From Sedimentibacter sp. MB31-C6 (lineage in GTDB: Bacteria > Bacillota > Clostridia > Tissierellales > Sedimentibacteraceae), in contig NZ_CP142396.1 in NCBI RefSeq assembly GCF_035934735.1, positions 2,170,001 to 2,234,000 of the forward strand: a stretch of 64,000 nucleotides of DNA, in the 5' to 3' direction. The notes under the pieces were generated by a model. It searched no databases. It had not been told where the DNA came from and was given only the letters and a program-made list of their open reading frames with translations. Position numbers and translations under genes: made by a program. Numbering within the stretch: position 1 is the stretch's first letter; every line of letters begins with the position of its first letter. This document shows, one piece after another, positions 7,047 to 25,949 of the stretch.

Positions 7047-7143
7047 AAATATAATTTTTGATAAATATATATAAAATAATTGAAGTATATGTTATACAAT
7101 GGTATAATAATTTTTATTTTATTATTGAAAGGCGGATTATTAA

Positions 7144-8151
7144 ATGAATCATTTTATAAAAGTTTTTATAATATCTTTATTATCTTTTTCTTTAGTTATT
7201 TTTACAGGACTCTTCACATATGACAAATATTTTGGTAATGAAGGCATAGAAATAGGAGATTCTAATGATAAACAAGGAAATGAAGAAGATGATAATATAG
7301 ATTATAATTCACCTTTAGAAAAAGCAATGCATGACAGTCACAGAATAAATGTATTATTATTGGGGCTTGAAGGATATAGAACCGATACAATAATGGTAGC
7401 AAGTTTTGACAGAAAAACTAAAGATGCAATTATAATATCAATTCCAAGGGATACTTATTATAAAAGAGAAGGATATTCAAAATATTCTGAATTTCAAAAA
7501 GTTAATGCAATATTTCAAACAGAAGATACTGTAGAAGATGGATATAAGGCAGTAGCAAAAGCGGTAGAAGAAATGATTGGAATTCCAATAGAAAAATATG
7601 TATCAATTGAATATGATGGTGTTAGAGCAGCTGTAACTGCTATAGGTGGAGTTGAAGTTGATGTTCCTTTTCATATGAAATATTCTGACCCTTACGATAC
7701 ACCACCACTTTATATTGATATTCCAGCAGGAAAGCAAATTATATATGGTGATAAGGCAATGGAATTTCTAAGATTTAGAAAATCTAATCATGAAGGATAT
7801 TATGGATATAAAAACGGTGATTTAGGAAGGATCGAAGTTCAACAGCAGTTTGTTAAATCTGCAATAAATAAATCTTTAAGCCTTAAACTTCCAAGTGTTA
7901 TAAGTGCAGTTTATCCTCATGTGAAAACAAATTTCACATTGACAGAACTCCTTGGATTAGGAAAAGACGCTATAGGATTTTCAATTGAAAATTTAGAGAC
8001 AACAACTATTCCTGGTATAGATAGAAATATGGGAGGATTATCTTTTTATGTTGTTGATGGAGAAGAAGTAATAAAACTGGTATATGATTTATATGATGTG
8101 CCTTTATCAGCAGAAACAGACAGTGAAGAATTAGCAAATAATATTGAATAA
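7144..8151 (+). CDS. LytR-CpsA-Psr (LCP) family protein, tandem paralogue
   Basis: Second LCP protein, 335 residues: an N-terminal membrane helix (about 7-27), an acidic linker (NDKQGNEEDDN), then the LCP domain with LLLGLEGYRTDTIM, ISIPRDTYY and MEFLRFRK...NGDLGRIEVQQQF. It is clearly a duplicate of its upstream neighbour, sharing for example the PFHMKYSDPYD segment. The gap of about 100 bp has its own AAAGGCGG site. A strong hairpin ends the unit. Roles in wall teichoic acid or capsule attachment cannot be separated here. Confidence 0.92.
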   Translation: MNHFIKVFIISLLSFSLVIFTGLFTYDKYFGNEGIEIGDSNDKQGNEEDDNIDYNSPLEKAMHDSHRINVLLLGLEGYRTDTIMVASFDRKTKDAIIISIPRDTYYKREGYSKYSEFQKVNAIFQTEDTVEDGYKAVAKAVEEMIGIPIEKYVSIEYDGVRAAVTAIGGVEVDVPFHMKYSDPYDTPPLYIDIPAGKQIIYGDKAMEFLRFRKSNHEGYYGYKNGDLGRIEVQQQFVKSAINKSLSLKLPSVISAVYPHVKTNFTLTELLGLGKDAIGFSIENLETTTIPGIDRNMGGLSFYVVDGEEVIKLVYDLYDVPLSAETDSEELANNIE

Positions 8152-9492: not shown

Positions 9493-10662
9493 ATGGATGT
9501 AAAAATGCGAGTTAATGATATATTTGATGAATTAGTAAAAATAAGAAGAGACTTTCATAAAAATCCAGAATTAGGGCAAAAGGAATTTAGAACACAATCA
9601 AAAATTCAAGAATATTTAAATGACTGGGGAATAGAAAATTATGTATGTGCTGATACTGGAGTTGTTGGAATAATCAGAGGTAAACAAAAAGGTATTACTG
9701 TAGGGTTGAGAGCAGATATTGATGCTCTTCCAATAAATGAAAAGAATAATCAATCATACTGTTCTATTAATCATGGGGTTATGCATGCTTGTGGTCACGA
9801 TGCTCATGCTACAATTCTTTTAGGTATAGGTAAAATCATAAAAGAAATGGAAGATTCATTGAAAGGCAATATCAAGCTGTTTTTCCAACCTGCTGAAGAA
9901 AGTGTAGGTGGAGGAGAACGAATGGTACAAGCTGGTTGTATGTTGAATCCAAAAGTTGATTATGTATTAGGGTTGCATGTTATGCCTTATATTGATGTTG
10001 GCAAGGTTGAACTTAAATATGGAAAACTCAATGCATCTACAGATTCTGTTAGCATTAAATTAAAAGGTAAATCTGCTCATGGAGCATATCCTGACTTGGG
10101 AACTGATGCAATAATTATAGCAGGACATGTTATTACTTCACTTCAAACAATTGTAAGTAGAAATATTTCTCCATTAAACTCAGTTGTACTTTCTTTGGGG
10201 AAAATTACAGGAGGAATAAAAAGTAATGTAATAGCTGACGAAGTTATGATTAATGGTACATTAAGAGCATTGGACAATGAAACTAGAAGTTATGTAAAAG
10301 AAAGAATATCAGATATTGTAGTAAATACAGCTAAATCCTTTGGAGGAGTGGGAACAGTAGAATTTTATGATGGCTATGAAGCTTTAATAAATAATGATGA
10401 AGTTGTTGACGTTATAAAGGAAAATGCTGAAAAATTTTTAGGAAGTGAAAATATAGTTTATAAGGAGTATCCAAGCTTAGGAGCTGAGGATTTCTCATAC
10501 TTCTCAGATATAGCGAAAGGTGCATTTTTTCATTTAGGTTGTGGAAATGCAAAAAAAGGTATTACAGCCCCTATTCACACAAATAATTTTGATATTGACG
10601 AAGAATGTTTAAAGGTAGGAGTTTTCTTACAAGTTCAAAATATTTTATCATTGTTGAAGTAA
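9493..10662 (+). CDS. M20-family amidohydrolase (N-acyl-amino-acid/aminobenzoyl-type)
   Basis: Zinc-dependent metallohydrolase that removes an acyl group from an N-acyl amino acid or similar amide; 389 residues. The family's metal and catalytic motifs are present: LRADIDALP, HACGHDAHATILLG, QPAEE and the late GAEDFSYFS. Histidines in SAHGAYPDLG mark the dimerisation domain. The gene starts ten bases after alr with GGGGGAG as ribosome site, and precedes the D-aminopeptidase. Substrate is not decidable; aminoacylase, hippurate and diaminopimelate-deacetylase-like activities all occur in this family. Confidence 0.88.
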   Translation: MDVKMRVNDIFDELVKIRRDFHKNPELGQKEFRTQSKIQEYLNDWGIENYVCADTGVVGIIRGKQKGITVGLRADIDALPINEKNNQSYCSINHGVMHACGHDAHATILLGIGKIIKEMEDSLKGNIKLFFQPAEESVGGGERMVQAGCMLNPKVDYVLGLHVMPYIDVGKVELKYGKLNASTDSVSIKLKGKSAHGAYPDLGTDAIIIAGHVITSLQTIVSRNISPLNSVVLSLGKITGGIKSNVIADEVMINGTLRALDNETRSYVKERISDIVVNTAKSFGGVGTVEFYDGYEALINNDEVVDVIKENAEKFLGSENIVYKEYPSLGAEDFSYFSDIAKGAFFHLGCGNAKKGITAPIHTNNFDIDEECLKVGVFLQVQNILSLLK

Positions 10663-10712
10663 AAGCTAGGACAATCTCCTAGCAATAATTAAGATAATAT
10701 ATGGAGGGAAAA

Positions 10713-11507
10713 ATGAAAGTATTTATTAGTGTAGATATCGAAGGTGTTACAGGAGTTACTTCATGGAGTGAAACTACTTTAGGAAATCACGATTACAAAC
10801 AATTTGCAGAACAAATGACAAAGGAAACAATTGCTGCTTGCGAAGGAGCAATTGCTATGGGTGCAAAGGAAGTTTTTGTTAAAGATGCTCACGATTCAGC
10901 AAGAAACATAGATATTACAAAGTTACCTAGATGTGTAAAATTAAGTAGAGGGTGGACAAACTGTCCAGAATCAATGGTTGCAGGAATAGATGATACCTTT
11001 GATGCAGCAATATTCATCGGATATCACTCAGGTGCTGGGTTTGACGGTAGTCCCTTATCCCATACTATGAACACAAATAACAACTATATGAAAATTAACG
11101 GTGAACTAGCTTCGGAATTTACTATTAATTCATATATTGCGGCAAGCTATGGTGTACCTGTGGTATTTTTAAGTGGAGATAAAATGCTTTGTGAAAAAGC
11201 AAAAGAATTTAATAAGGGGATAGAAACAGTAGCAGTAAAAGAAGGAATAGGTGGTGCAACTATAAGTATTAATCCAGATTACGCATGTGATTTAATTAAA
11301 GAAAAAGTAAAAGCTGGGTTGAAACATATAACTTCATGTAAAATCCAAATACCAGAAAAATTTAATGTTGAAATATGTTATAAAGAACATAAAGAAGCAA
11401 AAAGAGCATCGTATTATCCGGGAGTGACTCAAATAAATTCAAGTACAGTTTCATATAGTGCAAAAGATGTAATGCAACTTGCAACAACAAGGATGTTTAT
11501 TTCGTAG
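10713..11507 (+). CDS. M55-family D-aminopeptidase (DppA-like)
   Basis: Zinc aminopeptidase of the DppA family, known in Bacillus for D-alanyl-D-alanine peptides. The ATG at 10713 is the start because GGAGGG lies just before it; the ATG at 10701 overlaps that site. The protein has 264 residues. Ligands D8 and E10 appear in SVDIEGVTGV, and further conserved histidines in KDAHDSARN and GYHSGAG. The 3' end abuts a palindromic repeat that carries the TAG stop. Together with alanine racemase and M20 it suggests recycling of D-amino-acid peptides. Confidence 0.88.
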   Translation: MKVFISVDIEGVTGVTSWSETTLGNHDYKQFAEQMTKETIAACEGAIAMGAKEVFVKDAHDSARNIDITKLPRCVKLSRGWTNCPESMVAGIDDTFDAAIFIGYHSGAGFDGSPLSHTMNTNNNYMKINGELASEFTINSYIAASYGVPVVFLSGDKMLCEKAKEFNKGIETVAVKEGIGGATISINPDYACDLIKEKVKAGLKHITSCKIQIPEKFNVEICYKEHKEAKRASYYPGVTQINSSTVSYSAKDVMQLATTRMFIS

Positions 11508-11629: not shown

Positions 11630-11658
11630 TTGATTGTCGACAATATTCGTGTTATAAT
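11630..11658 (+). promoter_or_regulatory. Promoter and operator of the GntR regulator gene
   Basis: A -35 TTGATT (11630-11635) and -10 TATAAT (11653-11658) are 17 bases apart. The perfect palindrome ATTGTCGACAAT (11633-11644) overlaps the -35 and spacer. The same half-sites recur before the M24 gene, which suggests autoregulation by the adjacent GntR protein. Confidence 0.65.
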
Positions 11659-11718: not shown

Positions 11719-12387
11719 ATGGAGAATGTAAAAAATAGATATAATCGTGAAAATCTAAGCAGTATAGTTGCTAATTATATAAAAGAATCAATCTTATCTG
11801 GCGTTTATAAAGAAGGAGATCATATTTTAGAATCTGAAGTTGCATTTAAGTTAGGTATAAGTAGAGCACCAGTTAGAGAAGCAATTAAAGAACTTGAAAA
11901 AGAAGGTATAGTAACTTTAATACCGAGAAAAGGTACATATGTTACGAAGTTCACTATAGAGGATATTAAAGAGATTTTTGATATAAGACTTTTACTTGAA
12001 AACGATATTATAAATATCCTTATAAAAGAAGATAAACTGAATGATAGAGATTTTAAACACTTAGAATATTTGGTAAAAGATATGGTCAATGTTAGAAATT
12101 CTAATAAAAGTGATAAAAATAAAGCTATCTTAATCAATGTAAAAGATACTGAATTTCATAAGTATTTATGGCAGAAGTCAGGCAGTAAAAGAAGAGTAAA
12201 AATACTTGAAGATATATTTTTCCAATTAAGGATTGCAATGCTTTTTGATACTAATGAAACTGGAAATTTATTATTGACTGCCACAGATCATTATGACATC
12301 ATTGATAACTTAAGAAATAAAGATATAGAAATGAGTAAGCAATCACTAAGGAACCACATTTTTTCTTATAAAGAAGGTAGATTCTAA
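11719..12387 (+). CDS. GntR-family (FadR/FCD type) transcriptional regulator
   Basis: Ligand-responsive DNA-binding protein, 222 residues. The N-terminal winged helix (about residues 8-75) includes LKLGISRAPVREAIKELEKEGIV and a wing with PRKGTYVTKF. The C-terminal half is an all-helical FCD effector domain with metal-type histidines such as EFHKYLW and DHYDIID. It sits directly upstream of the M24/TRAP/M20/AOR cluster. ATTGTC/GACAAT palindromes precede both its own gene and that cluster, so it is the likely local regulator. The inducing ligand is probably the TRAP substrate or a breakdown product. Confidence 0.9.
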   Translation: MENVKNRYNRENLSSIVANYIKESILSGVYKEGDHILESEVAFKLGISRAPVREAIKELEKEGIVTLIPRKGTYVTKFTIEDIKEIFDIRLLLENDIINILIKEDKLNDRDFKHLEYLVKDMVNVRNSNKSDKNKAILINVKDTEFHKYLWQKSGSKRRVKILEDIFFQLRIAMLFDTNETGNLLLTATDHYDIIDNLRNKDIEMSKQSLRNHIFSYKEGRF

Positions 12388-12427
12388 TCAATTGTAAATA
12401 ATTATTAAGTTGTTATTTTCTTCAAGC

Positions 12428-12466
12428 ATTGTCGACAGATGACAATATACTTGATTAAATTATAAT
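12428..12466 (+). promoter_or_regulatory. Promoter and GntR operator of the M24/TRAP operon
   Basis: ATTGTC-GACAGAT-GACAAT (12428-12446) repeats the half-sites found before the regulator gene. A -10 TATAAT (12461-12466) follows, with ATGACA (12439-12444) as a weak -35 at 16 bases, so the operator would cover the -35 region. Confidence 0.6.
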
Positions 12467-12486
12467 AATTTTGAGGAGGTTTTAAA

Positions 12487-13665
12487 TTGAACAAAACATT
12501 GTATTTTCAAGTTGATGAGTACAAGTCAAGGCTTAATCGCACAAAGCATAAGATGGTAAATGACGGTATTGAAGTTTTAATTGTAACAGATCCCGCAAAC
12601 ATGAATTATATTTCTGGATTTGATGGATGGTCATTCTATGTTCATCAATGCTTAATTATTATGGCAGATCAGGATGAACCAATTTGGGTTGGAAGGGGAC
12701 AAGATGCTAATGCAGCTAGACTTACTTCGTGGATTAATGAAGAGAATATAAGACCTTATACTGATGACTATGTTCAATCATTAATTAAGCATCCTATGGA
12801 TTTTGTATCTGACATAATCAAAGAAAAAGGCTACGAAAATAAAAAAATAGCAACTGAAATGGATACTTATTATTATACTGCAAAATGTCAAGAAAGACTT
12901 GAATTACATCTGCCAAATGCTAAGTTTTCAGATGGTACAAACTTAGTCAATTGGGTGAAAATAGTTAAGTCTGATGCAGAAATTGAATATATCAGAAAAG
13001 CTTCAAAAATTGCAGAAAAAGCTATGGAAACTGCCTATGATTCAATTGATGTTGGAATAAGACAAAATGATGCAGCAGCAAAGGTATATCATGCTCAAAT
13101 TTCAGGGACCGAATCTTATGGTGGGGATTATTCATCAATTATTCCATTAATGCCAAGTGGTATTAGGACATCTACTCCTCATTTAAGTTGGACAGACGAG
13201 TCTTATAGAGACGGGGATACCGTTATCCTTGAACTCTCAGGCTGCTATAGGAGATATCATTGTCCGCTTTCTAGAACTTTAATATTAGGTGATGCTCCGC
13301 AAAAGGTTAAAGATTTAGCATCTGTAGTTGTTGAAGGATTAACAAATGCATTGAATTCTATCAAACCTGGAATTACTTGTGAAGAGGTAGAAAGAGTATG
13401 GGCTAACAGTATAGCAAAAAGTGGATTTATTAAGGATTCACGTATAGGGTATGCAATGGGTTTAAATTATCCTCCTGATTGGGGTGAACATACAGCAAGC
13501 TTTAGACCTGGTGATAAAACTATATTACAGCCAAATATGACATTTCATATGATTCCTGGAATATGGCTTGATGATTGTGGTGTGGATATAAGTGAATCCT
13601 TTAGAGTTACTGAAACTGGCATTGAATTATTTACAAATTATCCAAGAAAGCTATTAATTAAATAA
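12487..13665 (+). CDS. M24-family, ectoine-hydrolase-like (DoeA/EutD type) protein
   Basis: Creatinase/prolidase-fold protein of 392 residues, started by TTG with GAGGAGGT eight bases ahead. Blocks such as GWSFYVHQ, HPMDF, GGDYSSIIPLMPSG, GCYRRYHCPLSRT, YPPDWGE and NYPRKL resemble, from memory, the ectoine hydrolases DoeA/EutD rather than true Xaa-Pro peptidases. The two aspartates and the glutamate that bind metal in prolidases are not where expected (ELSGCYRRYHCPLSRT; NMTFHMIPG), which fits a metal-independent, creatinase-like hydrolase opening a ring or cleaving a C-N bond. It leads an operon with a TRAP transporter and an M20 hydrolase. A hydrolase for another cyclic amidine or amide is the alternative. 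Confidence 0.72.
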   Translation: MNKTLYFQVDEYKSRLNRTKHKMVNDGIEVLIVTDPANMNYISGFDGWSFYVHQCLIIMADQDEPIWVGRGQDANAARLTSWINEENIRPYTDDYVQSLIKHPMDFVSDIIKEKGYENKKIATEMDTYYYTAKCQERLELHLPNAKFSDGTNLVNWVKIVKSDAEIEYIRKASKIAEKAMETAYDSIDVGIRQNDAAAKVYHAQISGTESYGGDYSSIIPLMPSGIRTSTPHLSWTDESYRDGDTVILELSGCYRRYHCPLSRTLILGDAPQKVKDLASVVVEGLTNALNSIKPGITCEEVERVWANSIAKSGFIKDSRIGYAMGLNYPPDWGEHTASFRPGDKTILQPNMTFHMIPGIWLDDCGVDISESFRVTETGIELFTNYPRKLLIK

Positions 13666-13679
13666 ATGTAAGGTTATAC

Positions 13680-13704
13680 GTTGAAGGGCGTTTAGTCCTT
13701 CAAC
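13680..13704 (+). other. Intercistronic hairpin between M24 and TRAP genes
   Basis: GTTGAAGG-GCGTTTAGT-CCTTCAAC stem-loop without a T-run. It may stabilise or process the mRNA, or partly attenuate the operon; it is not a convincing terminator. Confidence 0.5.
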
Positions 13705-13731
13705 AAAAATTAATAAGAAAGAGGCAAATTT

Positions 13732-14310
13732 ATGAACAAAGTTATGAACGTTGTAACTAAAGTTGAAGAATTCATCTTGAGCTATTCAGTTATAGGGATG
13801 GCAGCATTACTTATAATAAGCGTTATTATGAGAACCATTTTCAACAGTAGTTTAACTTTTTCTGAGGAGGTAGGCCAAGCTTTGCTGGTTCTTATATCTT
13901 TTTTTGGACTTGAATATTGTGCAAGAAAAGGAAGAAATATTTCAATGTCAATAGTTTTTGATAAAGTCAATAATAAGAAGAAAAAGGTGTTTATTATCAT
14001 CATTTCTATTGTTTCAGCTGTAGCTATGATCTATATTACTTATTTAGCATTTGGATATGTTATGTCTGTTAAAGGCTTAGGTAGAGTTACACCTGCTCTA
14101 CAGATGCCAATGTACATAATATATACTACTGTACCAGTAGGATTCTTACTTGTATCTATAGAATATATCAGAACTTTTATATTAAACATTATGAATAAGG
14201 ATGAACTATACATAACAAGTGAGATACATATATCTATAGAAGAAGAAATACTTACTGATTTAAATAGCTTTATTGACGCTGCTGTAGATGAAAATAAGGA
14301 GGCGTTATAA
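13732..14310 (+). CDS. TRAP transporter small permease (DctQ-like)
   Basis: Small membrane subunit of a tripartite ATP-independent periplasmic-type transporter; 192 residues with four hydrophobic segments (roughly 18-35, 50-65, 85-110, 130-155). It links the binding protein to the large permease. Family-typical features are the early R in IMRTIF and EEVGQALLVLISFFGLEYCARKG. AAAGAGG upstream of the ATG fits the start. The large permease follows after two bases. The acidic C-terminal tail (about 160-192) is longer than usual. Confidence 0.88.
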   Translation: MNKVMNVVTKVEEFILSYSVIGMAALLIISVIMRTIFNSSLTFSEEVGQALLVLISFFGLEYCARKGRNISMSIVFDKVNNKKKKVFIIIISIVSAVAMIYITYLAFGYVMSVKGLGRVTPALQMPMYIIYTTVPVGFLLVSIEYIRTFILNIMNKDELYITSEIHISIEEEILTDLNSFIDAAVDENKEAL

Positions 14311-14312
14311 TT

Positions 14313-15581
14313 ATGTTATGGATGCTTATGGGCATAATGTTCCTATTATTTGTATTGAATTTTCCGATGTATATTTCAATGATTGTTGCACCGTTAGCAG
14401 TTATAATATGTTATTTTCCAAATCTTGGACCGCAATTAGCCACTCAACAATTAATAGCTGGAGTTTCAACTCAAGTTCTTTTAGCAGTTCCTATGTTTAT
14501 TTTTGCAGCAGATATAATGAGTGCAGGAGAAACATCTAATAGACTATTAGACATTGTAGATGCTTTTGTTGGACATATTCATGGAGGTATGGCAATTACT
14601 ACAGCAGCTGCATGTACATTATTTGGAGCAATTTCTGGTTCAACACAAGCTACTGTTGTTGCAATAGGTAAACCAATGAGAAACAGATTAGTTTCTTCTG
14701 GTTATGAAGATGAAGATACTACTGCTCTAATAATTAGCTCTTCAATTATAGCACTATTAATTCCTCCAAGTATTTCAATGATTATGTACTGTGTGGTTAC
14801 AGGTGCATCTGTAGGGGATTTGTTTAAGGCAGGGGTGTTGCCGGGTGTAATAATTTTAATGTTTTTCTCTATTTATAACTATATTAATGCTAAACGAAAA
14901 AAAATAGCAAGAAGAAAGAAATTTAACGCTAGTGAACGATTAGCAGCATTTAAAAAATCAATTGGCGCATTAGGATTTCCTTTAATTATATTCGCAGGTA
15001 TTTATTCTGGAATGTTTAGTCCTACTGAAGCAGCTGCAATAGGGGTATTATATGCAACTATATTAGAAGTTTTTATTTATAAGTCAATAAAATTTAAAGA
15101 TTTCAAAAATATTGCTCTTTCTACTGCCGTAGTAACAACAGCAGTATTTATATTAGTAGCAGCAGGATGTTTATTTTCATGGGCTATATCATACGCCAGG
15201 ATACCACAGATTATTACTGAATCAATATTAGGTCCAAATCCTACAGCATTAATGGTCTTAATAACTGTATCAATAGCATTTTTTATTGCAGGTATGTTTG
15301 TAGATTCTATTGTTGCAATAGTAATATTGACACCTATATTTTTCCCACTGGCTATTCAAGCAGGAATTCATCCAATTCAAATGGGAATTATTGTAACGCT
15401 ACAAGCAGCAATTGCTTCTATAAGTCCTCCATTTGGATGTAATATTTTTACTGCTAGTGCAATATGGGATGTTCCTTTTATAAAGGTAGTTAGAAGACTT
15501 CCAGCATACTTAATTATGCTTATAGTTATATCTATATTAATTATAGCATTCCCTGAAATATCTCTAATATCTGTTAAATAA
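14313..15581 (+). CDS. TRAP transporter large permease (DctM-like)
   Basis: Main membrane subunit that drives sodium- or proton-coupled import; 422 residues, about twelve hydrophobic helices. The DctM hallmarks VPMFIFAADIMS, FGAISGSTQATVVAIG, LLIPPSISMIMY, FSPTEAAAIGVLYA and ISPPFGCNIF are all present. An AAGGAGG site lies within the end of dctQ. Its binding protein is encoded two genes downstream, after an M20 hydrolase inserted in the operon, so the hydrolase probably acts on the imported compound. Confidence 0.93.
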   Translation: MLWMLMGIMFLLFVLNFPMYISMIVAPLAVIICYFPNLGPQLATQQLIAGVSTQVLLAVPMFIFAADIMSAGETSNRLLDIVDAFVGHIHGGMAITTAAACTLFGAISGSTQATVVAIGKPMRNRLVSSGYEDEDTTALIISSSIIALLIPPSISMIMYCVVTGASVGDLFKAGVLPGVIILMFFSIYNYINAKRKKIARRKKFNASERLAAFKKSIGALGFPLIIFAGIYSGMFSPTEAAAIGVLYATILEVFIYKSIKFKDFKNIALSTAVVTTAVFILVAAGCLFSWAISYARIPQIITESILGPNPTALMVLITVSIAFFIAGMFVDSIVAIVILTPIFFPLAIQAGIHPIQMGIIVTLQAAIASISPPFGCNIFTASAIWDVPFIKVVRRLPAYLIMLIVISILIIAFPEISLISVK

Positions 15582-15617
15582 TATGAGGAATATTATTAAA
15601 CTCAAGGAGAGTATATT

Positions 15618-16802
15618 ATGAAGTATTTAAAAAAGGAAATAAAAGAATTAGAAGGTGAATTAATAAATTTACGTAGAGACTTTCATATGTATCCTGAATT
15701 AGGATATGAAGAATATAGAACTTCTAAAATTGTATATGATTATTTGAAAAATCTTGGCTTGGAAGTGAAAAACGTAGCAAAAACTGGAGTAGTTGGGTTG
15801 CTACAAGGAAGGGAACCAGGTAAGACTGTAATGCTTAGAGCGGATATGGATGCATTGCCACAAATGGAAAAGACAGGGCTTCCTTATAAATCTACTAATA
15901 AAGGTGTTATGCATGCTTGTGGGCATGATGGTCATACTGCTATGTTAATGATAGCAGCGAAAATATTATCTAATTATAAAGATAATATTAAAGGAAATAT
16001 AAAGTTTGTATTTCAACCTAACGAAGAAGAGGCGGGAGCACTGGATATGATAAATGAGGGTATGTTAGATAATCCAAAAGTTGATGGTGCACTTGGAATA
16101 CATTTATGGACACCACTAAAGAGTGGTGAGATAGGAATTGCAGAAGGACCGATAATGGCTGCTTTAGAGGAGTTTGAGCTTACTATAACAGGTAAATCAG
16201 GTCATACAGGTTCACCACATACAGCCATTGACCCAATTTTAGCATCAACTAATATAATACAAAGTTTGCAATCAATCCAAACAAGAGAAATTAACCCTTT
16301 ATTCCCTATAACCATAATGGTAGGAAAGATAAATGGCGGAACTGGTAGAAATATAATTGCTGAAAAGGTTGAGTTAGGTGGTACCATTAGATTTTTATTT
16401 AAAGATGAAGTAAGAGAAAAGAAAATTTTATTAGAAAAAATTGAAAGGGTTATTAAGGGAATATCTGAAGCTATGGGTGTTGAATATAATTTAAAATTCA
16501 TCCCTAGCAATCCATCATTGCTTAATAATGCAAATATGGTTAATTACGTGAAAAAGGCTGCATTTGAAACTTATGGTGTAGACAACAACGTTGTTGAATA
16601 TAGAAACATGGCAGGGGAAGATTTTGCTGAGTTTTCGCAAAGAGTTCCCAGTATATTGTACTTTATTGGTAATGGTAATGATGAAAAAGGAACTAATTAT
16701 CCTCATCATCATCCAATGTTTAATATTGACGAAGATACTCTTAAATATGGAGTAGAAATGCATGTAAGAACAGCTTTAGATTTTCTAAATAATAAAAATT
16801 AA
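15618..16802 (+). CDS. M20-family amidohydrolase within TRAP operon
   Basis: Metal-dependent amidohydrolase of 394 residues, paralogous to the one at 9.5 kb. Motifs: LRADMDALP, HACGHDGHTAML, QPNEEEAG, and MAGEDFAEFS; the dimerisation domain has SGHTGSPHTAIDP. AAGGAGA precedes the ATG. Lying between the large permease and the binding protein of a TRAP transporter and after a DoeA-like protein, it could remove the acyl group left after ring opening, such as N-acetyl-diaminobutyrate (DoeB2-like role). That substrate is inference; a general N-acyl-amino-acid hydrolase fits equally. Confidence 0.87.
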   Translation: MKYLKKEIKELEGELINLRRDFHMYPELGYEEYRTSKIVYDYLKNLGLEVKNVAKTGVVGLLQGREPGKTVMLRADMDALPQMEKTGLPYKSTNKGVMHACGHDGHTAMLMIAAKILSNYKDNIKGNIKFVFQPNEEEAGALDMINEGMLDNPKVDGALGIHLWTPLKSGEIGIAEGPIMAALEEFELTITGKSGHTGSPHTAIDPILASTNIIQSLQSIQTREINPLFPITIMVGKINGGTGRNIIAEKVELGGTIRFLFKDEVREKKILLEKIERVIKGISEAMGVEYNLKFIPSNPSLLNNANMVNYVKKAAFETYGVDNNVVEYRNMAGEDFAEFSQRVPSILYFIGNGNDEKGTNYPHHHPMFNIDEDTLKYGVEMHVRTALDFLNNKN

Positions 16803-16814
16803 GGAGGAAATGTA

Positions 16815-17867
16815 ATGAAGAAATTATTTTTAAGTTCAATATCTATATTACTAATCACAATATTGTTAGTAGGTTGCGGAGAAAACACTACTTCACCAAC
16901 TGCAGGTGGGGACCAAGAGACATATAATTGGAGATTTGCGCATGAAGAAAACAATGGAAGTATTCAAGATGTTTATGTAAAAAAATTTGTCGAAGTTCTT
17001 GAAGAAAAATCAGGTGGTAAAATTAATATAGATATTTACCCTGTAGGACAAATTGGTGATGCTACTCAACAAGCTGAATTATTACAAAACGGCGGATTAG
17101 AATTTGCTATGGTATCCCCGGGAAATACTGGTACAATAGTTCCAGAAAATCAACTATTCTCTTTGCACTTTTTATTTTCAGAAAATATGGACGTAAACAG
17201 AGAAGTGTTTAAAACAAGTAAAGCATTAAATGAAATATTATCAGATAAATATTTAGAGAAAAATATTCAAGTTTTATCATATTGGACTGAAGGACCGATG
17301 GAATGGACTACAAAGAATCCAGTTAATACTCCTGAAAAATGGAAAGGAGTTAAAATGAGAACAATGCCTTCTCCTATGATAGTAGCTTCATACGAAGCTT
17401 ATGGAGCTAATCCCACACCAGTTCCTTATATGGAAGTATATAGTGGACTTCAATTAAATATGATCGAAGGTCAAGAAAACCCAATCTCTGCAATACAAGA
17501 AATGAAGTTCTACGAAGTACAAGATTATTTAACATTAGGGTCATCAAGCTTATATGTTACATGTACATGCGTGAATCCAGAATTTTTTAATGGATTACCA
17601 GAAGATATTCAACAAATGATTTTAGATACAGCAGATGAATTAGTAGATTTTTCATTTGAAGCTCAAGCTGATCTTAATGGTGGAGCTTTAGATTTAATTA
17701 AAGCAGACAGTGATATTGAAGTAGTTGAATTAACAAAAGAAGAAAGAGCGGCATTCAAAGAAGCTTCTAAATCAGCGTATGATAAATATATTGAAATGGT
17801 AGGTGCTGATGGAGAAAAAATATTAAACACTCTTTTAGAAGAAATAGCAGCCGTTGAAGGAAAATAA
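16815..17867 (+). CDS. TRAP transporter substrate-binding lipoprotein (DctP-like)
   Basis: Extracytoplasmic solute receptor of 350 residues with a lipoprotein signal peptide: a hydrophobic stretch then lipobox LLVGC, cysteine about residue 21. The mature part has the DctP pattern: WRFAHEENNGS, GGKINIDIYPVGQIGD, a central GVKMRTMPSPMIVASYEAYGANPTPVPYMEVYSGLQ block with the arginine that usually binds the substrate carboxylate, and EGQENPIS. Strong AAGGAGG site. It delivers substrate to the DctQM pair upstream. A short hairpin follows the stop. Confidence 0.93.
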   Translation: MKKLFLSSISILLITILLVGCGENTTSPTAGGDQETYNWRFAHEENNGSIQDVYVKKFVEVLEEKSGGKINIDIYPVGQIGDATQQAELLQNGGLEFAMVSPGNTGTIVPENQLFSLHFLFSENMDVNREVFKTSKALNEILSDKYLEKNIQVLSYWTEGPMEWTTKNPVNTPEKWKGVKMRTMPSPMIVASYEAYGANPTPVPYMEVYSGLQLNMIEGQENPISAIQEMKFYEVQDYLTLGSSSLYVTCTCVNPEFFNGLPEDIQQMILDTADELVDFSFEAQADLNGGALDLIKADSDIEVVELTKEERAAFKEASKSAYDKYIEMVGADGEKILNTLLEEIAAVEGK

Positions 17868-17885
17868 ATATTTATTATAAAAAGT

Positions 17886-17908
17886 TAAGGGGAAGATAAT
17901 TCCCCTAA
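17886..17908 (+). terminator. Short GC-rich hairpin after the TRAP binding protein
   Basis: TTAAGGGGAA-GATAA-TTCCCCTAAAATTTTA. With only a weak T-rich tail it may be a partial terminator that lets the binding protein be made in excess over the oxidoreductase. Confidence 0.5.
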
Positions 17909-17935
17909 AATTTTAGCATATAAGGAGGGTGTAAT

Positions 17936-19837
17936 ATGTATAATCAATTTCCTGATGCAAAAGTGTTAGAGGTAGATTTATTTTCACATAATGTTAAATT
18001 AAAAACACTTCCTGGAGAAATTTATAGACATTATCCTGGTGGCTCAGCCTTAGGACTTTATCTGGCAATCCAAAGTATAAAGACTGGAATCGATCCTTTA
18101 TCTCATGAAAATGTTCTTGTGTTTTCTGTATCAGCATTGACCGGACTCCCAATAAGTGGAATAAGCAGACTAAATGTTACCGCCAAAAGTCCCCTTACCG
18201 GCACTATGGGTGATAGTCAAGCAGGAGGATATTTTCCAGCATATTTAAAAGGGAATGGTTATGATGCTATTGTAATAAAAGGAAAAGCAGAAAAACCTGT
18301 TTATTTATATATTGATGGAGATAAGGTAGAATTAAAGGATGCTCATAATATATGGGGTAAAGTAACAGGTGAATCAGAAAAAATTATTAAAGCAGAATTA
18401 GAAAGAGAAGATGTCGAAATAGCTCAAATTGGTCAAGGTGGAGAAAATTTAGTTAAGTTTGCATGTATAATCAATATGTGCAATAGAGCTAATGGTAGAA
18501 ATGGTATGGGAGCTGTAATGGGATCGAAAAACCTTAAAGCAGTTGTAGTATCTAAAAGAAAAGCATTAAAACCATATGACAATGAAAAATTTGCTGAATT
18601 ATCAAAAAGTGTAAGAACTCGATTGAAAGAAAACGAAGCTGTATCAGGATTAGGTAAATATGGGACTGATGGAGATTTGGAAGGCTTCAGCGAGGCAGGT
18701 TTTTTACCAACAAATAATTGGACTTCAGGCTATTTCCCTGAAGGAGCTAATAAAATAACAGGTACTACAATGTTTGATACCATTTTAAAAGAAAGAGATA
18801 CTTGCTTTTCTTGTGCTGTTAGATGTAAAAGAGTTGTAGAAGTAGATGGTATGGTAGACCCTCTATATGGTGGACCAGAATATGAGACGGTCGCATCATT
18901 TGGATCATATTGTGGTGTAACTAATTTAGAATATATATCATTAGCTAATCAGCTTTGTAATATGTATGGATTAGATACAATTTCTTGTGGAGCTACTATA
19001 GCATTTGCTATGGAATGTTATGAAAAGAAGTTAATTAATAATGAAGAAACTGAAGGAATAAAGCTTAATTTTGGAAACGCTGAAGCGCTTCCTTTGTTAA
19101 TAGAAAAAATAGCTAAAAAAGAAGGTATTGGTAAATTATTAGCTGAAGGAAGTTATAGGGCAGCCAAACAGTTAGGAACTGAAGCTATAAACCTATGCGT
19201 AACGGTAAAAGGACAGGAGTTGCCAGCTCATATGCCACAATATAAACCAGCAGTAGGTCTTGTATATGCAGTAAACCCATTTGGAGCTGATCATCAATCT
19301 AGTGAGCATGATCCATTTTTATTACTGTCATCTGATAGTAGAGAAAGAAAAAGATTAGCTAAGATAGGGATACATAAAGGCTATGATGATACGACTATAA
19401 TGGATGATGAAAAAGTTAGATTTGCTTTTGAAAGTCAGAAATATTTTTCAGTTTTAGATACATTATGTTTATGTCAATTTGTATGGGGACCATCTTGGGA
19501 ACTATACGGACCAGATGATTTAGTTGGACTTTGTAAATATGGAATAGGATGGGATACTTCAATATATGAATTGATGCAAATAGGGGAAAGGCGTATTAAT
19601 ATGATGAGATATTTTAACGCTAAGGAAGGATTTACCAAAGAAGAAGATAAAATGCCAGAAAGGATGTTTGAACCGTTAAAAGAGGGGCCAACTGATGGCA
19701 TTATATTAAATAGAGAGGACCACGAAAAGTCTAAAGAATTTTATTATGAAATTGCAGGATGGGATAAGGAAACAGGAAATCCTACAGAATCAACAATGAG
19801 AAAATTATCTTTGCATTGGGAATTAAATGGAAACTAA
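17936..19837 (+). CDS. Aldehyde ferredoxin oxidoreductase
   Basis: Cytoplasmic tungsten/molybdenum-pterin and [4Fe-4S] enzyme that oxidises an aldehyde to the acid with ferredoxin as acceptor; 633 residues, the family length. N-terminal pterin-binding blocks include GGSALGLYLA, GISRLNVTAKSPLTG and GGYFPAYLKGNGYDAIVIKG, plus NGMGAVMGSKNLKAVVV. The cluster cysteines are in CFSCAVRC near residue 290, with the fourth probably in LCLCQF near residue 510. A strong AAGGAGGG (about 17922) sets the start. Placed after the TRAP genes and before an aldolase-type PLP enzyme, it may remove an aldehyde intermediate. Confidence 0.93.
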   Translation: MYNQFPDAKVLEVDLFSHNVKLKTLPGEIYRHYPGGSALGLYLAIQSIKTGIDPLSHENVLVFSVSALTGLPISGISRLNVTAKSPLTGTMGDSQAGGYFPAYLKGNGYDAIVIKGKAEKPVYLYIDGDKVELKDAHNIWGKVTGESEKIIKAELEREDVEIAQIGQGGENLVKFACIINMCNRANGRNGMGAVMGSKNLKAVVVSKRKALKPYDNEKFAELSKSVRTRLKENEAVSGLGKYGTDGDLEGFSEAGFLPTNNWTSGYFPEGANKITGTTMFDTILKERDTCFSCAVRCKRVVEVDGMVDPLYGGPEYETVASFGSYCGVTNLEYISLANQLCNMYGLDTISCGATIAFAMECYEKKLINNEETEGIKLNFGNAEALPLLIEKIAKKEGIGKLLAEGSYRAAKQLGTEAINLCVTVKGQELPAHMPQYKPAVGLVYAVNPFGADHQSSEHDPFLLLSSDSRERKRLAKIGIHKGYDDTTIMDDEKVRFAFESQKYFSVLDTLCLCQFVWGPSWELYGPDDLVGLCKYGIGWDTSIYELMQIGERRINMMRYFNAKEGFTKEEDKMPERMFEPLKEGPTDGIILNREDHEKSKEFYYEIAGWDKETGNPTESTMRKLSLHWELNGN

Positions 19838-19886
19838 AAATAAGCAAAGATGTAGACGTTAATTGAATAAATTAAAGGAGATTAGT

Positions 19887-21110
19887 ATGTTGAAATCGAC
19901 AAGAGATATAGATAATTTGCTTAAAAAACATGAAAATTATAGGGAAAGCTGCTTGAACCTTATTGCTTCAGAAAATTATGCAAGTAATAAAGTTAGAAGT
20001 TATTTAAGTTGCGATTTTGGAAATAGATATGGTTGTTATGTTACTGAAAACCCACAGGAAAGAGAATACACAGGTAATAAATATATATATGAATTTGAAA
20101 TGGCTACTCAAGAGTTAGTTAAAGATATTTTTAAAGCAAAATATGCAGATTTAAGACCAATAAGTGGACATATGGCAGGAATGTCTGTAGTACTTGCACT
20201 GTTAGAACCTGGTGATTTAGTTATAGAGGTACATTTAAAAGACTGGGGTCATGGTTTAGTAGGTCCTATGTGTCAAATTAGACAATTTAATGAGACTATT
20301 GATGTTAAATACATGGACTTTAATGAAGATAGAGCAGTTGATATAGAAAAATTAAAAGTACAAGTAAAAGAACTAAAACCAAAGTTAGTTATAATGGGTG
20401 GTTCAGGTACTATTTTTGCAGAACCTGTAAAGGAAGTAAGAGAATTAGCAGATGAGTATGGATTTTTAATCGCTTATGATGCTTCACATGTTACTGGATT
20501 AATTGCATCAGGGGTCTTTCCTAATCCTCTTAATGAGGGAGCACATATAATGTTTGGTAGTACTCACAAGTCATTCCCTGGTCCTCAAGGAGGTTTTGTT
20601 GTTTCGAATAATGAAGAGCTAATTTTTAATGTTGGAAATACTATATCTCCATCATTAGTTACAAGCCATCATTTAAATAGACTTCCTGCTTTAGCTACAT
20701 CAATATTAGAGATGAAGAAATTTGGAAATGATTATGGAAAACAAATTGTTAAAAATTCAAAAGCTTTAGCAGTGTCATTAGAAAAGTACGGATTTAATGT
20801 TCTAGGTAAAAATAGGGGATTTACTGATACTCATCTTTTACTTATTGATTTAGGAGATATAATAGACATTGCACCTGCACAATATTTAGAAAAGGCTGGA
20901 ATATTATGTTCAGATGACTTTTCAGGAAACAGTACTGAAGTACGCATTGGTACACCTGAAGTAACTAGAAGAGGCATGAAAGAAAAAGACATGGAGACAA
21001 TTGCATTATTTTTCAAAAGAATTTTGCTAGATAAAGAACCAGCTGAATTAGTATCAAAAGATGTAGAGCAATTCAACAGACAGTTTTTAGGAACAGAATA
21101 TTCCTTTTAA
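19887..21110 (+). CDS. Divergent serine hydroxymethyltransferase-like PLP enzyme
   Basis: Fold-type I PLP enzyme of 407 residues, started at the ATG at 19887 six bases after AAAGGAG; the TTG at 19863 lacks a site. SHMT-like blocks: ESCLNLIASENYAS, the substrate/PLP region YEFEMATQELVKDIF, YDASHVTGLIASG, and the PLP-lysine motif STHKSFPGPQGG. It is less like housekeeping GlyA, for instance RPISGHMAGMSV replaces the usual NVQPHSGS, so a specialised retro-aldol enzyme on a beta-hydroxy or alpha-substituted amino acid is likely. Next to the aldehyde oxidoreductase, it could produce that enzyme's aldehyde substrate. Confidence 0.82.
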   Translation: MLKSTRDIDNLLKKHENYRESCLNLIASENYASNKVRSYLSCDFGNRYGCYVTENPQEREYTGNKYIYEFEMATQELVKDIFKAKYADLRPISGHMAGMSVVLALLEPGDLVIEVHLKDWGHGLVGPMCQIRQFNETIDVKYMDFNEDRAVDIEKLKVQVKELKPKLVIMGGSGTIFAEPVKEVRELADEYGFLIAYDASHVTGLIASGVFPNPLNEGAHIMFGSTHKSFPGPQGGFVVSNNEELIFNVGNTISPSLVTSHHLNRLPALATSILEMKKFGNDYGKQIVKNSKALAVSLEKYGFNVLGKNRGFTDTHLLLIDLGDIIDIAPAQYLEKAGILCSDDFSGNSTEVRIGTPEVTRRGMKEKDMETIALFFKRILLDKEPAELVSKDVEQFNRQFLGTEYSF

Positions 21111-24165: not shown

Positions 24166-24194
24166 TTGACAATTTGGTTTATACAGTATAGACT
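24166..24194 (+). promoter_or_regulatory. blaI-type promoter with candidate operator
   Basis: TTGACA at 24166-24171, a TATAGA-like -10 near 24187-24192, and the palindrome TATAC-A-GTATA (24180-24190) inside the spacer. BlaI-family repressors usually bind their own promoter, so this is the natural operator candidate, although it is not the classical TACA-TGTA site. Confidence 0.45.
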
Positions 24195-24234
24195 TAATAT
24201 AAAGTCGATGTTGCATAGACCAAGGAGGTTTATC

Positions 24235-24597
24235 ATGAAATATTATAAACTCGCAGAAACTGAAGAAAAGTTTGCCGAATTAATCTGGCAGAACGAACCG
24301 ATTGGCTCCGGCGATCTTGTGAAGCTAAGTGAAAAAGAAATGAATTGGAAAAAATCCACAACATATACAGTACTTAAAAAGTTATGTGATAAGGGTATTT
24401 TTCAAAATGAAAATGCAGTGGTTTCATCTCAAATTTCAAAGGATGAATATTACGCCAAGCAAAGTATACGTTTCGTGGAGGATACCTTTGGAGGGTCACT
24501 GCCGAAATTTCTAACATCTTTTATCAGTGGCAAAAAAATAAGTAATTATCAAGCTGAAGAGTTGAAAAGATTGATTGATGAGCATAAGGAGGTGTAG
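24235..24597 (+). CDS. BlaI/MecI/CopY-family repressor
   Basis: Winged-helix repressor of 120 residues; start at ATG 24235 with AAGGAGGT upstream. The N-terminal LAETEEKFAELIWQNEP and recognition helix region WKKSTTYTVLKKLCDKGIF are typical, and a C-terminal dimerisation helix contains the usual cleavage-target region. It is followed two bases later by its M56 sensor protease. In the classical system a ligand makes BlaR cleave BlaI, releasing beta-lactamase or PBP genes. No beta-lactamase is adjacent here. Confidence 0.92.
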   Translation: MKYYKLAETEEKFAELIWQNEPIGSGDLVKLSEKEMNWKKSTTYTVLKKLCDKGIFQNENAVVSSQISKDEYYAKQSIRFVEDTFGGSLPKFLTSFISGKKISNYQAEELKRLIDEHKEV

Positions 24598-24599
24598 CA

Positions 24600-25949
24600 A
24601 TGAGTGAACTATTTCTTACTGTTTTAAATATGAGCCTTACGGCAAGTTATGTAATTGTTTTTGTAATACTCATCAGGTTTCTACTCAAAAAAGCTCCAAA
24701 AGTCATCTCCTATGCCTTATGGGGTGTGGTTGCTTTTCGCCTTTTAATTCCATTCTCCTTTGAAAGCATGTTTAGTCTTATGCCACGTAATACGAATGCT
24801 GTACCAATCCCCCAAGATATTATCTATCAACAAATTCCGCAGATTAACAGCGGGATAAAAGTGGTTGATTCATTTGTAAACAATTCATTTCCTGCACCGA
24901 CTATAGGGGCAAGTGTGAATCCACTTCAGATATACGTGGAAATGGGGGCATACATCTGGGTATTAGGCATAATAGCTTTGCTTGTTTATAGCCTTATATC
25001 TATTTTGACATTAAAAAGACGGCTTAAAAGTGCACAATTAATAGAGAAAAATATCTTCGAAGCAAAGAATTTGAAAACACCATTTGTGCTTGGATTGATA
25101 AGCCCCAAGATATATTTACCTTATAGACTTAATGCTATTGAACGAAGCTATATTTTGCTACATGAACAAACCCATATTCACCGGAAAGACCATATTATAA
25201 AAATTTTAGGCTTCCTAATATTGTCCGTCCACTGGTTTAACCCCCTCGTGTGGATTGCATTCATGTTAATGAGTGCGGATATGGAACTTTCCTGTGATGA
25301 AAGAGTATTGAAAGAGATGAATGAAGATATTAAAAAACCATATGCTAATTCGTTATTGTCACTTGCAACAGGGGAGTATATTTTTAATTGTAATCCACTT
25401 GCTTTTGGCGAGGGAAATGTGAAAGGGAGGATTAAAAACGTGTTAAATTATAAAAAACCAAGATTTTGGGTGGTTGTATTAGCAGCCATTGTTGCACTAG
25501 CCATTGGGATTGGGCTTTTGGTAAATCCCGGTGTAAATTCATCCATACCAAGATTAATAACAGGATACATGGTAATAGAAGATGACTTATTATATATTGA
25601 TGAAGTTGAAATAATTTACAGGGAAGATACAGAACGAATAGAAGAACTTGAAGAATTGGGGGAAAGCATCACTACACCCAGTGGTTATCACATTTATAAT
25701 CCGGACACAGACAAGCAAACTTTTAAAATCACAAAGGAAACAACATATACATTTGTTGATTATAGTTTTCTATTTCTTGAAGATGGGGTTGCGGATAGAT
25801 TATATACAACAACAAATAAAGAAGAGTTTATGCTACACTTAGATGAATCATATTCTGATTCACCACCGGCGCAAAAGGTTCCATTTTTTATAGAAGTAAA
25901 AGATGGTAAGGTAATAAGTATTACAGAGAAAATTGAATTTACCATTTAG
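24600..25949 (+). CDS. BlaR1-like M56 membrane metalloprotease sensor
   Basis: Membrane sensor protease, 449 residues. N-terminal helices (about 5-22, 36-55, 110-135) frame the M56 peptidase domain with the zinc motif HEQTH near residue 195 and the downstream ELSCDERVL glutamate. A further helix is near residues 290-312. The C-terminal extracellular part (about 313-449) is not a penicillin-binding transpeptidase domain: no SxxK plus KTG motifs were seen, so it probably senses something other than a beta-lactam. Coupled to the upstream BlaI-type repressor. Confidence 0.88.
   Translation: MSELFLTVLNMSLTASYVIVFVILIRFLLKKAPKVISYALWGVVAFRLLIPFSFESMFSLMPRNTNAVPIPQDIIYQQIPQINSGIKVVDSFVNNSFPAPTIGASVNPLQIYVEMGAYIWVLGIIALLVYSLISILTLKRRLKSAQLIEKNIFEAKNLKTPFVLGLISPKIYLPYRLNAIERSYILLHEQTHIHRKDHIIKILGFLILSVHWFNPLVWIAFMLMSADMELSCDERVLKEMNEDIKKPYANSLLSLATGEYIFNCNPLAFGEGNVKGRIKNVLNYKKPRFWVVVLAAIVALAIGIGLLVNPGVNSSIPRLITGYMVIEDDLLYIDEVEIIYREDTERIEELEELGESITTPSGYHIYNPDTDKQTFKITKETTYTFVDYSFLFLEDGVADRLYTTTNKEEFMLHLDESYSDSPPAQKVPFFIEVKDGKVISITEKIEFTI

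Follow-up and report, generated by a model that had tools for sequence, protein, structure and literature searches.

Which compound is handled by eight adjacent genes that pair a relative of ectoine hydrolase with an aldehyde:ferredoxin oxidoreductase (AOR) and a divergent relative of serine hydroxymethyltransferase (SHMT)? The genes were found in Sedimentibacter sp. MB31-C6, in a 64,000-nucleotide stretch of contig NZ_CP142396.1 (positions 2,170,001 to 2,234,000) that is called the window here. They encode a GntR regulator, an M24 protein of DoeA/EutD type, a tripartite ATP-independent periplasmic (TRAP) importer, an M20 amidohydrolase, the AOR and an SHMT-like pyridoxal phosphate (PLP) enzyme. 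The cluster probably serves the uptake of 5-hydroxyectoine and its fermentation by a retro-aldol route in this anaerobe. An earlier note, made from the sequence alone, had proposed an anaerobic pathway for an ectoine-like solute. This direction was supported and the solute was narrowed to 5-hydroxyectoine, because the diaminobutyrate formed from plain ectoine lacks the beta-hydroxyl on which an SHMT-type aldolase depends.

Proposed route

The substrate, each reaction and the order of steps are predicted here from gene families, active-site residues and gene co-occurrence. Hydroxyectoine would be taken up by the TRAP importer, and its ring would be hydrolysed by the M24 enzyme through a conserved Glu to hydroxy-N-acetyl-diaminobutyrate, from which the M20 enzyme would strip acetate to leave (2S,3S)-3-hydroxy-2,4-diaminobutyrate. 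The SHMT-like enzyme would split the latter, a beta-hydroxy amino acid of allo configuration, into glycine and aminoacetaldehyde in a retro-aldol reaction. The AOR would oxidise aminoacetaldehyde to a second glycine with reduction of ferredoxin, a step that would fall to an NAD-type aldehyde dehydrogenase (ALDH) in some relatives. Finally, a glycine reductase encoded elsewhere would convert glycine to acetyl phosphate and ammonia using the electrons of the aldehyde step. The atom-checked balance of the proposed route is hydroxyectoine + 3 H2O -> 2 acetate + glycine + NH3.

Recurrence of the gene set

The gene set is not a chance assembly since it recurs in other genomes. In a phylum sample of 398 genomes, including that of MB31-C6, an M24 gene at E 1e-60 or better was present in 18 genomes. 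Type A clusters, with M24, M20, AOR and SHMT-like genes, were found in MB31-C6, at three places in G043 and in G112, and TRAP genes were present in all of these except one G043 locus. The remaining M24 genomes were loosely labelled type B. In these the M24 gene was mostly accompanied by TRAP and M20 genes, with EutB, RidA, glutamate-dehydrogenase-like, PanB-like, Pfam-less and EutA-like genes in varying combination. The EutB of G086 scored 408.5 bits with a cut-off of 413.

An alignment scan with the SHMT-like protein over a collection of 84,980 species, seeded with the peptides CLNLIASE and DF[GS]NRYGC, gave 143 relatives of which the best 80 were retained. Among these best 80, 25 loci had at least 52% identity and the other 55 had at most 41%; the M24 gene was part of 17 of the 25 loci and of none of the 55 more distant ones. 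The 25 loci represent 24 genomes (L081 and L083 both belong to G043), and several of the eight loci without an M24 gene lie on short contigs. When whole genomes were searched, an M24 match at 52% identity or more was found in 22 of 23 SHMT-type genomes, L078 being the miss. Culturable carriers of the cluster include Tissierella praeacuta, Peptoclostridium litorale, Acidaminobacter hydrogenoformans and Sedimentibacter hydroxybenzoicus. In Clostridium sp. Cult1 (L077, L174) the operon is interrupted within the M20 gene and lies at two places on one contig. In five SHMT-type genomes (G400, G401, G403, G418 and G420), an M24 cluster resembling type B, but without EutB, is present in addition to the type A one or instead of it.

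EutB at 46% identity or more was found in none of the 26 SHMT-type genomes (best match 41%; several are incomplete metagenome-assembled genomes, MAGs) compared with 8 of the 15 other M24 genomes, a mutual exclusion with a Fisher p of 7e-5 that ignores kinship. Since the two PLP enzymes exclude each other beside the same hydrolase, one shared substrate, a beta-hydroxy-alpha-amino acid, is suggested. This pattern bears on the reading that plain ectoine is degraded to diaminobutyrate while the SHMT-like enzyme and AOR belong to a separate co-regulated route, for example for L-allo-threonine or another beta-hydroxy amino acid. EutD opens both ectoines according to the available text of PMC8739950, and the SHMT-like and AOR genes are sometimes found apart from the M24 gene (L074, L180 and L184), as such a reading would have it. 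It is nevertheless quite improbable, given the exclusion of EutB, the 17 of 25 loci that unite M24 and SHMT-like genes, and the absence of a diaminobutyrate transaminase or semialdehyde dehydrogenase from the cluster, the only part of the genome checked for them.

M24 protein and amidohydrolase

The top NCBIfam model for the M24 protein was ectoine hydrolase DoeA (TIGR02993, 498 bits), with the best peptidase model at 104 bits, and the five other type A members scanned scored 454-498 bits with TIGR02993. Against solved structures, the protein scored 376 bits with ectoine hydrolase DoeA/HeEutD (6twk), 109 with the best dipeptidase and 45 with creatinase. Its Glu249 aligns with HeEutD Glu255, which we take to be the residue that forms the covalent intermediate, and Glu occupies this position in every aligned row, 22 of type A (20 distinct genes) and 15 of type B. 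The five metal-binding residues of prolidase 1wy2, D, D, H, E and E, are replaced by E, P, Y, I and S, none being kept. The alignments to 1wy2 and HeEutD thus agree with the earlier note, which had described an M24 protein resembling ectoine hydrolase and lacking the prolidase metal ligands.

The tree that the note had called for, built from 48 different rows of matched frames (pMl9a, pMl9b and SalipXP left out; creatinase not among the rows), grouped the protein with DoeA/EutD, with four proteobacterial DoeA proteins inside the wider group. Four prolidase-like proteins from MB31-C6 itself were set outside (98/96) by a branch of length 2.49, with long branches flagged as unsure. The MB31-C6 genome (3.02 Mb, two contigs) has one DoeA-like gene, and its four other matches had 22-26% identity. 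The M24 protein is 86% identical to its counterpart in T. praeacuta and 64% identical to one encoded on a Priestia plasmid together with an annotated eutB.

For the M20 protein, the amidohydrolase model TIGR01891 was exceeded, while the best model, carboxypeptidase CpsA, scored 415 bits, under its cut-off of 500, and the DoeB2 model 272 bits, under its cut-off of 550. The M20 protein is proposed to deacetylate hydroxy-N-acetyl-diaminobutyrate in the role of EutE/DoeB. The Pfam names of both enzymes and the CpsA match would fit peptidases acting on imported peptides; this is hardly credible for an M24 site without any metal ligand and a protein that the tree separates from the four prolidase-like proteins. 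A prolidase role of the M24 protein was rejected on the same two grounds.

SHMT-like enzyme

The SHMT-like protein scored 307 bits with PRK00011, under the cut-off of 335, and its PLP-lysine motif STHK was invariant in four aligned members. It shares the fold and PLP site of SHMT GlyA (4uqv and 4bhd; 274 bits over 402 residues). In contrast to GlyA, the type A enzymes have a Cys in place of the catalytic Glu, a shorter loop before the RIGTP motif and an operon context of their own. In all 27 type A rows, which represent 26 distinct genes, the position of bsSHMT Glu53 is held by Cys (Cys58). Of ten rows regarded as canonical, nine have Glu and L065 has Ala; Glu is also present in three of six more remote relatives, and among the aligned rows Cys was seen only in type A. 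The count of 27 is partly conditioned by the search, as the second seed contains the Cys; the copies of G000, G043 and G112, reached through the M24 gene instead of the seeds, have Cys too.

These data bear on whether the protein is an ordinary folate-dependent SHMT variant for one-carbon metabolism, with the AOR as a general aldehyde detoxifier. The SHMT fold and the PLP-lysine motif are retained, and the closest solved chain by sequence is the SHMT 4uqv, presumably from Methanocaldococcus jannaschii. Such a role is very improbable in view of the Cys in all type A rows, of a separate and more ordinary SHMT in the same genome (31% identical to the SHMT-like protein) and of the 16 loci among 25 in which this SHMT type adjoins an AOR or ALDH gene.

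According to the consulted sections of PMC5958214, the replaced Glu is involved in the cleavage of serine with folate but not in that of L-allo-threonine. For the SHMT of Escherichia coli, a Km of 1.5 mM and a kcat of 30 per min were given for L-allo-threonine compared with 43 mM and 4.3 for L-threonine (PMC3697235, Table 2). Native hydroxyectoine is the 5S form, and EutA was proposed to invert 5S to 5R to suit EutB (both from excerpts of PMC5924519). By the Cahn-Ingold-Prelog rules, the 5S compound would lead to the 2S,3S (allo) form of hydroxy-diaminobutyrate, and an SHMT-type aldolase would not need the inversion by EutA. The earlier guess that the SHMT-like enzyme splits hydroxy-diaminobutyrate gained support from the lost Glu, the EutB exclusion, the stereochemistry and the ALDH/AOR exchange described below, with the substrate itself predicted. 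A more specific version has about equal weight on either side: that this folate-independent SHMT branch is a dedicated (2S,3S)-3-hydroxy-2,4-diaminobutyrate aldolase, through which native 5S-hydroxyectoine would be used without the proposed inversion and dehydration by EutA and EutB in a closed Stickland-like fermentation.

Aldehyde step

The AOR scored 379 bits with 9mqx and 376 bits with 1aor, presumably the enzyme of Pyrococcus furiosus. It shares both domains, the CxxCxxxC motif (at 290 in the window protein) and the PEYE and histidine regions with 1aor. Orthologues at 53% identity or more were found in 18 of the 26 SHMT-type genomes searched, a group set apart from the next match, which had 44%. 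An AOR gene was in the same locus in 14 of the 25 SHMT-like loci; with the ALDH genes of L071 and L088 this makes up the 16 loci mentioned above. Most relatives within the AOR group were located with an aldolase-like gene.

In T. praeacuta, the very place between dctP and the SHMT-like gene is taken by an NAD-type ALDH gene, and no AOR match was found in that genome at E 1e-40. The best model of this ALDH was betaine-aldehyde dehydrogenase (425 bits, cut-off 669), and its orthologues (55% identity or more) were found in 6 of 26 SHMT-type genomes. In Schnuerera the orthologue lies 1.1 kb after the SHMT gene and an AOR is present too. The P. litorale genome has a single perfect ATTGTCGACAAT, the putative operator sequence described below, and the orthologue there (73%) begins 35-53 bases behind it, depending on the start. 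In L088, from Spirochaetia, another ALDH adjoins the SHMT-like gene. Six genomes without AOR (G403, G405, G410, G418, G419 and G420) had no orthologue of the T. praeacuta-type ALDH either; other substitutes were not looked for.

Two neighbourhoods of AOR or SHMT-like genes were recorded in addition. In L075 (1656-9568), a TupA-like tungstate-binding gene (244 bits, cut-off 400) and, by eye, molybdopterin-synthesis-like genes follow the SHMT-like gene, which is only suggestive of a tungsten cofactor in the AOR. In L175 (Clostridium sp. Cult1), an AOR paralogue (67%) adjoins a gene of the class II (ribulose/fuculose-phosphate type) aldolase family and phosphotransferase system (PTS)-like genes, a further case of an AOR next to an aldolase-like gene.

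Glycine reductase

The MB31-C6 genome contains grdA with one in-frame TGA and around it, read by eye, grdX, grdE, grdB, trxB, trxA, grdC and grdD, a full glycine reductase set. These genes are about 0.7 Mb from the cluster and no perfect operator site was found there. The grdE product scored 658 bits with the sarcosine-type GrdG model (cut-off 780), and glycine is its predicted substrate. GrdA scored over the cut-off in 22 of 26 SHMT-type genomes (19 of the 23 named ones plus G000, G043 and G112), compared with 108 of 395 in the phylum sample minus these last three (p = 7e-9) and 7 of 15 other M24 genomes (p = 0.015), both p values ignoring kinship. The four misses (L075, L076, L091 and L095) are all MAGs. 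The positive SHMT-type genomes include Spirochaetia, Oscillospiraceae, Syntrophomonadaceae and Halanaerobiales.

In L031 (10505-14547), a sodium/solute symporter gene and sarcosine-type (GrdG) reductase genes follow the type A cluster that has no TRAP genes. These neighbours were dropped as a glycine reductase since the GrdE-like gene is of the sarcosine-type GrdG (830 bits, cut-off 780). The symporter is closest to PutP and is not claimed as a hydroxyectoine symporter.

Binding protein and identity of the solute

The phmmer search with DctP had 4pfi, TeaA and UehA as top solved matches, and the solved structures nearest to its AlphaFold model were TeaA (2vpo/2vpn), 4pfi and UehA (3fxb). For TeaA, we take the pocket to consist of Glu9, Arg144, Asn184 and the aromatic residues F66, W167, W188 and F209. 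On this list, the Glu, Arg and Asn were retained in 17 of 17 DctP rows. W167 and F209 were matched by Tyr (15 rows) or Phe (2), F66 by Asn (16) or Cys (1), and W188 by Ala (12), Ser (3), Gly (1) or Tyr (1). The comparison with UehA/TeaA that the earlier note had asked for thus gave a mixed outcome, with the expected fold but only part of the aromatic pocket retained.

Several results weigh against the hydroxyectoine route, which is least secure as to the substrate itself and the altered DctP pocket. DctP of the window is non-aromatic at two of the four presumed aromatic positions (F66 to N and W188 to A), with Tyr at the other two. The M24 protein, at 498 bits, is under the TIGR02993 equivalog cut-off of 613, where the DoeA of Sinorhizobium meliloti scores 839. 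The catalytic Glu is also lost in three of six distant SHMT relatives and one of ten canonical rows, so that its loss is not unique to the cluster, and it is believed to act as the base of folate-independent cleavage as well (PMC10397204, in the text available). The L078 genome has no M24 match although its SHMT-like gene (74%) belongs to the subfamily, and EutA-like genes, which the proposed scheme makes superfluous, were found in 3 of the 17 loci with both M24 and SHMT-like genes (L083, L087 and L092). Eight of 26 SHMT-type genomes have no AOR orthologue and an ALDH stands beside the SHMT gene in only two of these; the reductase genes adjoining L031 are of the sarcosine (GrdG) type; and the co-occurrence figures ignore kinship among the genomes.

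Some of these points would also fit a different ectoine-related cyclic amidine or amide, with another beta-hydroxy-alpha-amino acid as the deacylated product and the same SHMT and AOR chemistry on another aldehyde. The M24 score under the DoeA cut-off and the altered pocket are consistent with this, as is the deepest branching of Firmicute EutD in the published tree (PMC13188858, as far as its text was available). Such a solute is rather unlikely, as sister clusters with close M24, TRAP and M20 relatives contain EutB, RidA and EutA-like genes, the plasmid M24 protein with 64% identity stands with an annotated eutB, and the nearest folds of DctP include ectoine binders. The reading of 5-hydroxyectoine as the solute is kept as the probable one.

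Gene organisation and putative operators

All eight genes are open and on the + strand, as determined from the open reading frame list, Pfam and NCBIfam (Table 1). The gene set given by the earlier note, with GntR, M24, a complete TRAP importer, M20 within the transporter operon, AOR and SHMT-like genes in one direction, was found in full. The likely start of the SHMT-like gene, judged from homologues, is the ATG at 19887, and with this start the intergenic gaps are 2-68 bases from the M24 gene on. The upstream M20 gene (9493-10662) and M55 D-aminopeptidase gene (10701-11507) were left out of the cluster, since neither was a best match anywhere in the 80 loci.

Table 1. Genes of the cluster and putative operators in the window.
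Feature	Position	Strand	Support or context
Perfect palindromic putative operator ATTGTCGACAAT	11633-11644	.	Overlaps -35/spacer of gntR promoter-like match
GntR/FCD-family regulator	11719-12387	+	Pfam GntR 60.5 bits, FCD 40.3
Second, imperfect putative operator ATTGTCGACAGATGACAATA	12428-12447	.	Before M24 gene
DoeA/EutD-like M24, predicted (hydroxy)ectoine hydrolase, without metal site	12487-13665	+	TIGR02993 498 bits; 6twk; tree
TRAP small permease DctQ	13732-14310	+	Pfam 93.5 bits
TRAP large permease DctM	14313-15581	+	Pfam 356 bits
M20 amidohydrolase, proposed deacetylase	15618-16802	+	TIGR01891 364 bits
TRAP solute-binding lipoprotein DctP, TeaA/UehA-like	16815-17867	+	phmmer; AlphaFold model
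Aldehyde:ferredoxin oxidoreductase (AOR)	17936-19837	+	Pfam AFOR_N + AFOR_C
SHMT-like PLP enzyme	19863-21110	+	Pfam SHMT PF00464 177 bits

The gntR promoter-like match is TTGATT-17-TATAAT at 11630-11658. ATTGTCGACAAT overlaps its -35 and spacer, an arrangement that suits a repressor, and the GntR/FCD regulator would probably repress the cluster from ATTGTCGACAAT operators. A GntR relative was present in 15 of the 25 SHMT-like loci. Where 100 bases or more of sequence preceded gntR, ATTGTCGACAAT with at most one mismatch was found within 350 bases upstream in 15 of 16 cluster cases (L081 counted twice; the miss was L091), where 500 mononucleotide shuffles gave a mean of 0.028 and a maximum of 1. 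No perfect WTTGTCGACAAW other than the site before gntR was found in the 3.02 Mb genome, and a genome-wide regulon was rejected on this single perfect site. The second site, ATTGTCGACAGATGACAATA, adjoins the promoter-like match ATGACA-16-TATAAT at 12439-12466, and sites with at most one mismatch were found before the M24 gene in L073, L080, L082, L083, L086, L089, L090 and L092. Within the window alone, the three operator matches at up to two mismatches correspond to chance frequency. Of the sites inspected in other genomes, that of A. hydrogenoformans in L223 lies inside a coding frame, looks like chance and was not retained; the P. litorale site in front of the ALDH gene was retained.

Comparison with known systems

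The cluster shares a TeaA/UehA-type TRAP importer, an EutD/DoeA-type hydrolase and a deacetylase step with the uehABC-eutABCDE-asnC-ssd-atf genes of Ruegeria pomeroyi and the doe genes of Halomonas elongata. It differs from the proteobacterial route by the absence of EutA, EutB, EutC, EutE, the transaminase and the semialdehyde dehydrogenase, in place of which the SHMT-like enzyme and AOR are found; by an FCD-type GntR regulator instead of the MocR-type EnuR; and by the predicted products, acetate and glycine rather than aspartate. For R. pomeroyi, EutABC were stated to be needed for hydroxyectoine use with their precise activities unknown (PMC8739950, available sections).

Putative clusters in Bacillota (Bacilli and Clostridia), Thermodesulfobacteriota and Actinomycetota were collected in 2026 with EutD and EutB as baits, according to the accessible text of PMC13188858. 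Those clusters and the EutB clusters found here (G086, G350, G116 and others) resemble the window cluster in having an EutD-like M24 protein, a TRAP or other importer and an M20-type amidohydrolase (abgB), mostly without EutE. Unlike the window, the eight EutB genomes found here do not have the SHMT-like subfamily. The words ferredoxin, hydroxymethyltransferase, glyA and Tissierella are absent from the main text of PMC13188858 as available. PMC8318568 and PMC12029414 pair hydroxyectoine with glycine reductase or AOR as words, the subjects being unrelated as far as the accessible text goes. No description of an SHMT and an AOR in the use of ectoine or hydroxyectoine was found in a search confined to open-licence literature, with most of the matching papers left unopened, and the conserved cluster of anaerobes looks like a so far undescribed breakdown of hydroxyectoine to acetate and glycine.

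The steps after ring opening of hydroxyectoine are unsettled, and the retro-aldol route would be a second and chemically simple answer. If true, it would connect a widespread osmolyte with fermentation through glycine reductase: from one hydroxyectoine, the aldehyde half would be oxidised via ferredoxin to glycine and the electrons consumed by glycine reductase. It also suggests that the labels serine hydroxymethyltransferase and M24 peptidase are wrong for such genes in these bacteria. The culturable carriers allow direct tests of the pathway.

Variant clusters and neighbouring genes

Varying sets of PanB-like (ketopantoate hydroxymethyltransferase) and glutamate-dehydrogenase-like genes and of a family without Pfam or NCBIfam match were found in the type B loci L033, L034, L035, L036, L038, L047, L181, L186 and L188. 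As an idea only, PanB-type chemistry in type B might convert 4-amino-2-oxobutyrate to pyruvate and a one-carbon unit. In L037, L040, L043 and L183, which include Halanaerobium congolense, a methionine-gamma-lyase-like PLP gene is found with M24, M20 and TRAP genes, possibly a third downstream variant. An arylformamidase/cyclase-like gene adjoins the type A cluster in L032 (18287-19114) and L077 (11252-11905), and the type B M24 gene of L047 (9674-10471; G116) is split into two frames. In the window itself, two LytR-CpsA-Psr-like genes were recognised by eye farther upstream of the cluster (6090-8151), and at 24166-25949 a short gene of winged-helix type precedes one for a large membrane protein, the two resembling, by eye, a BlaI/BlaR-like pair.

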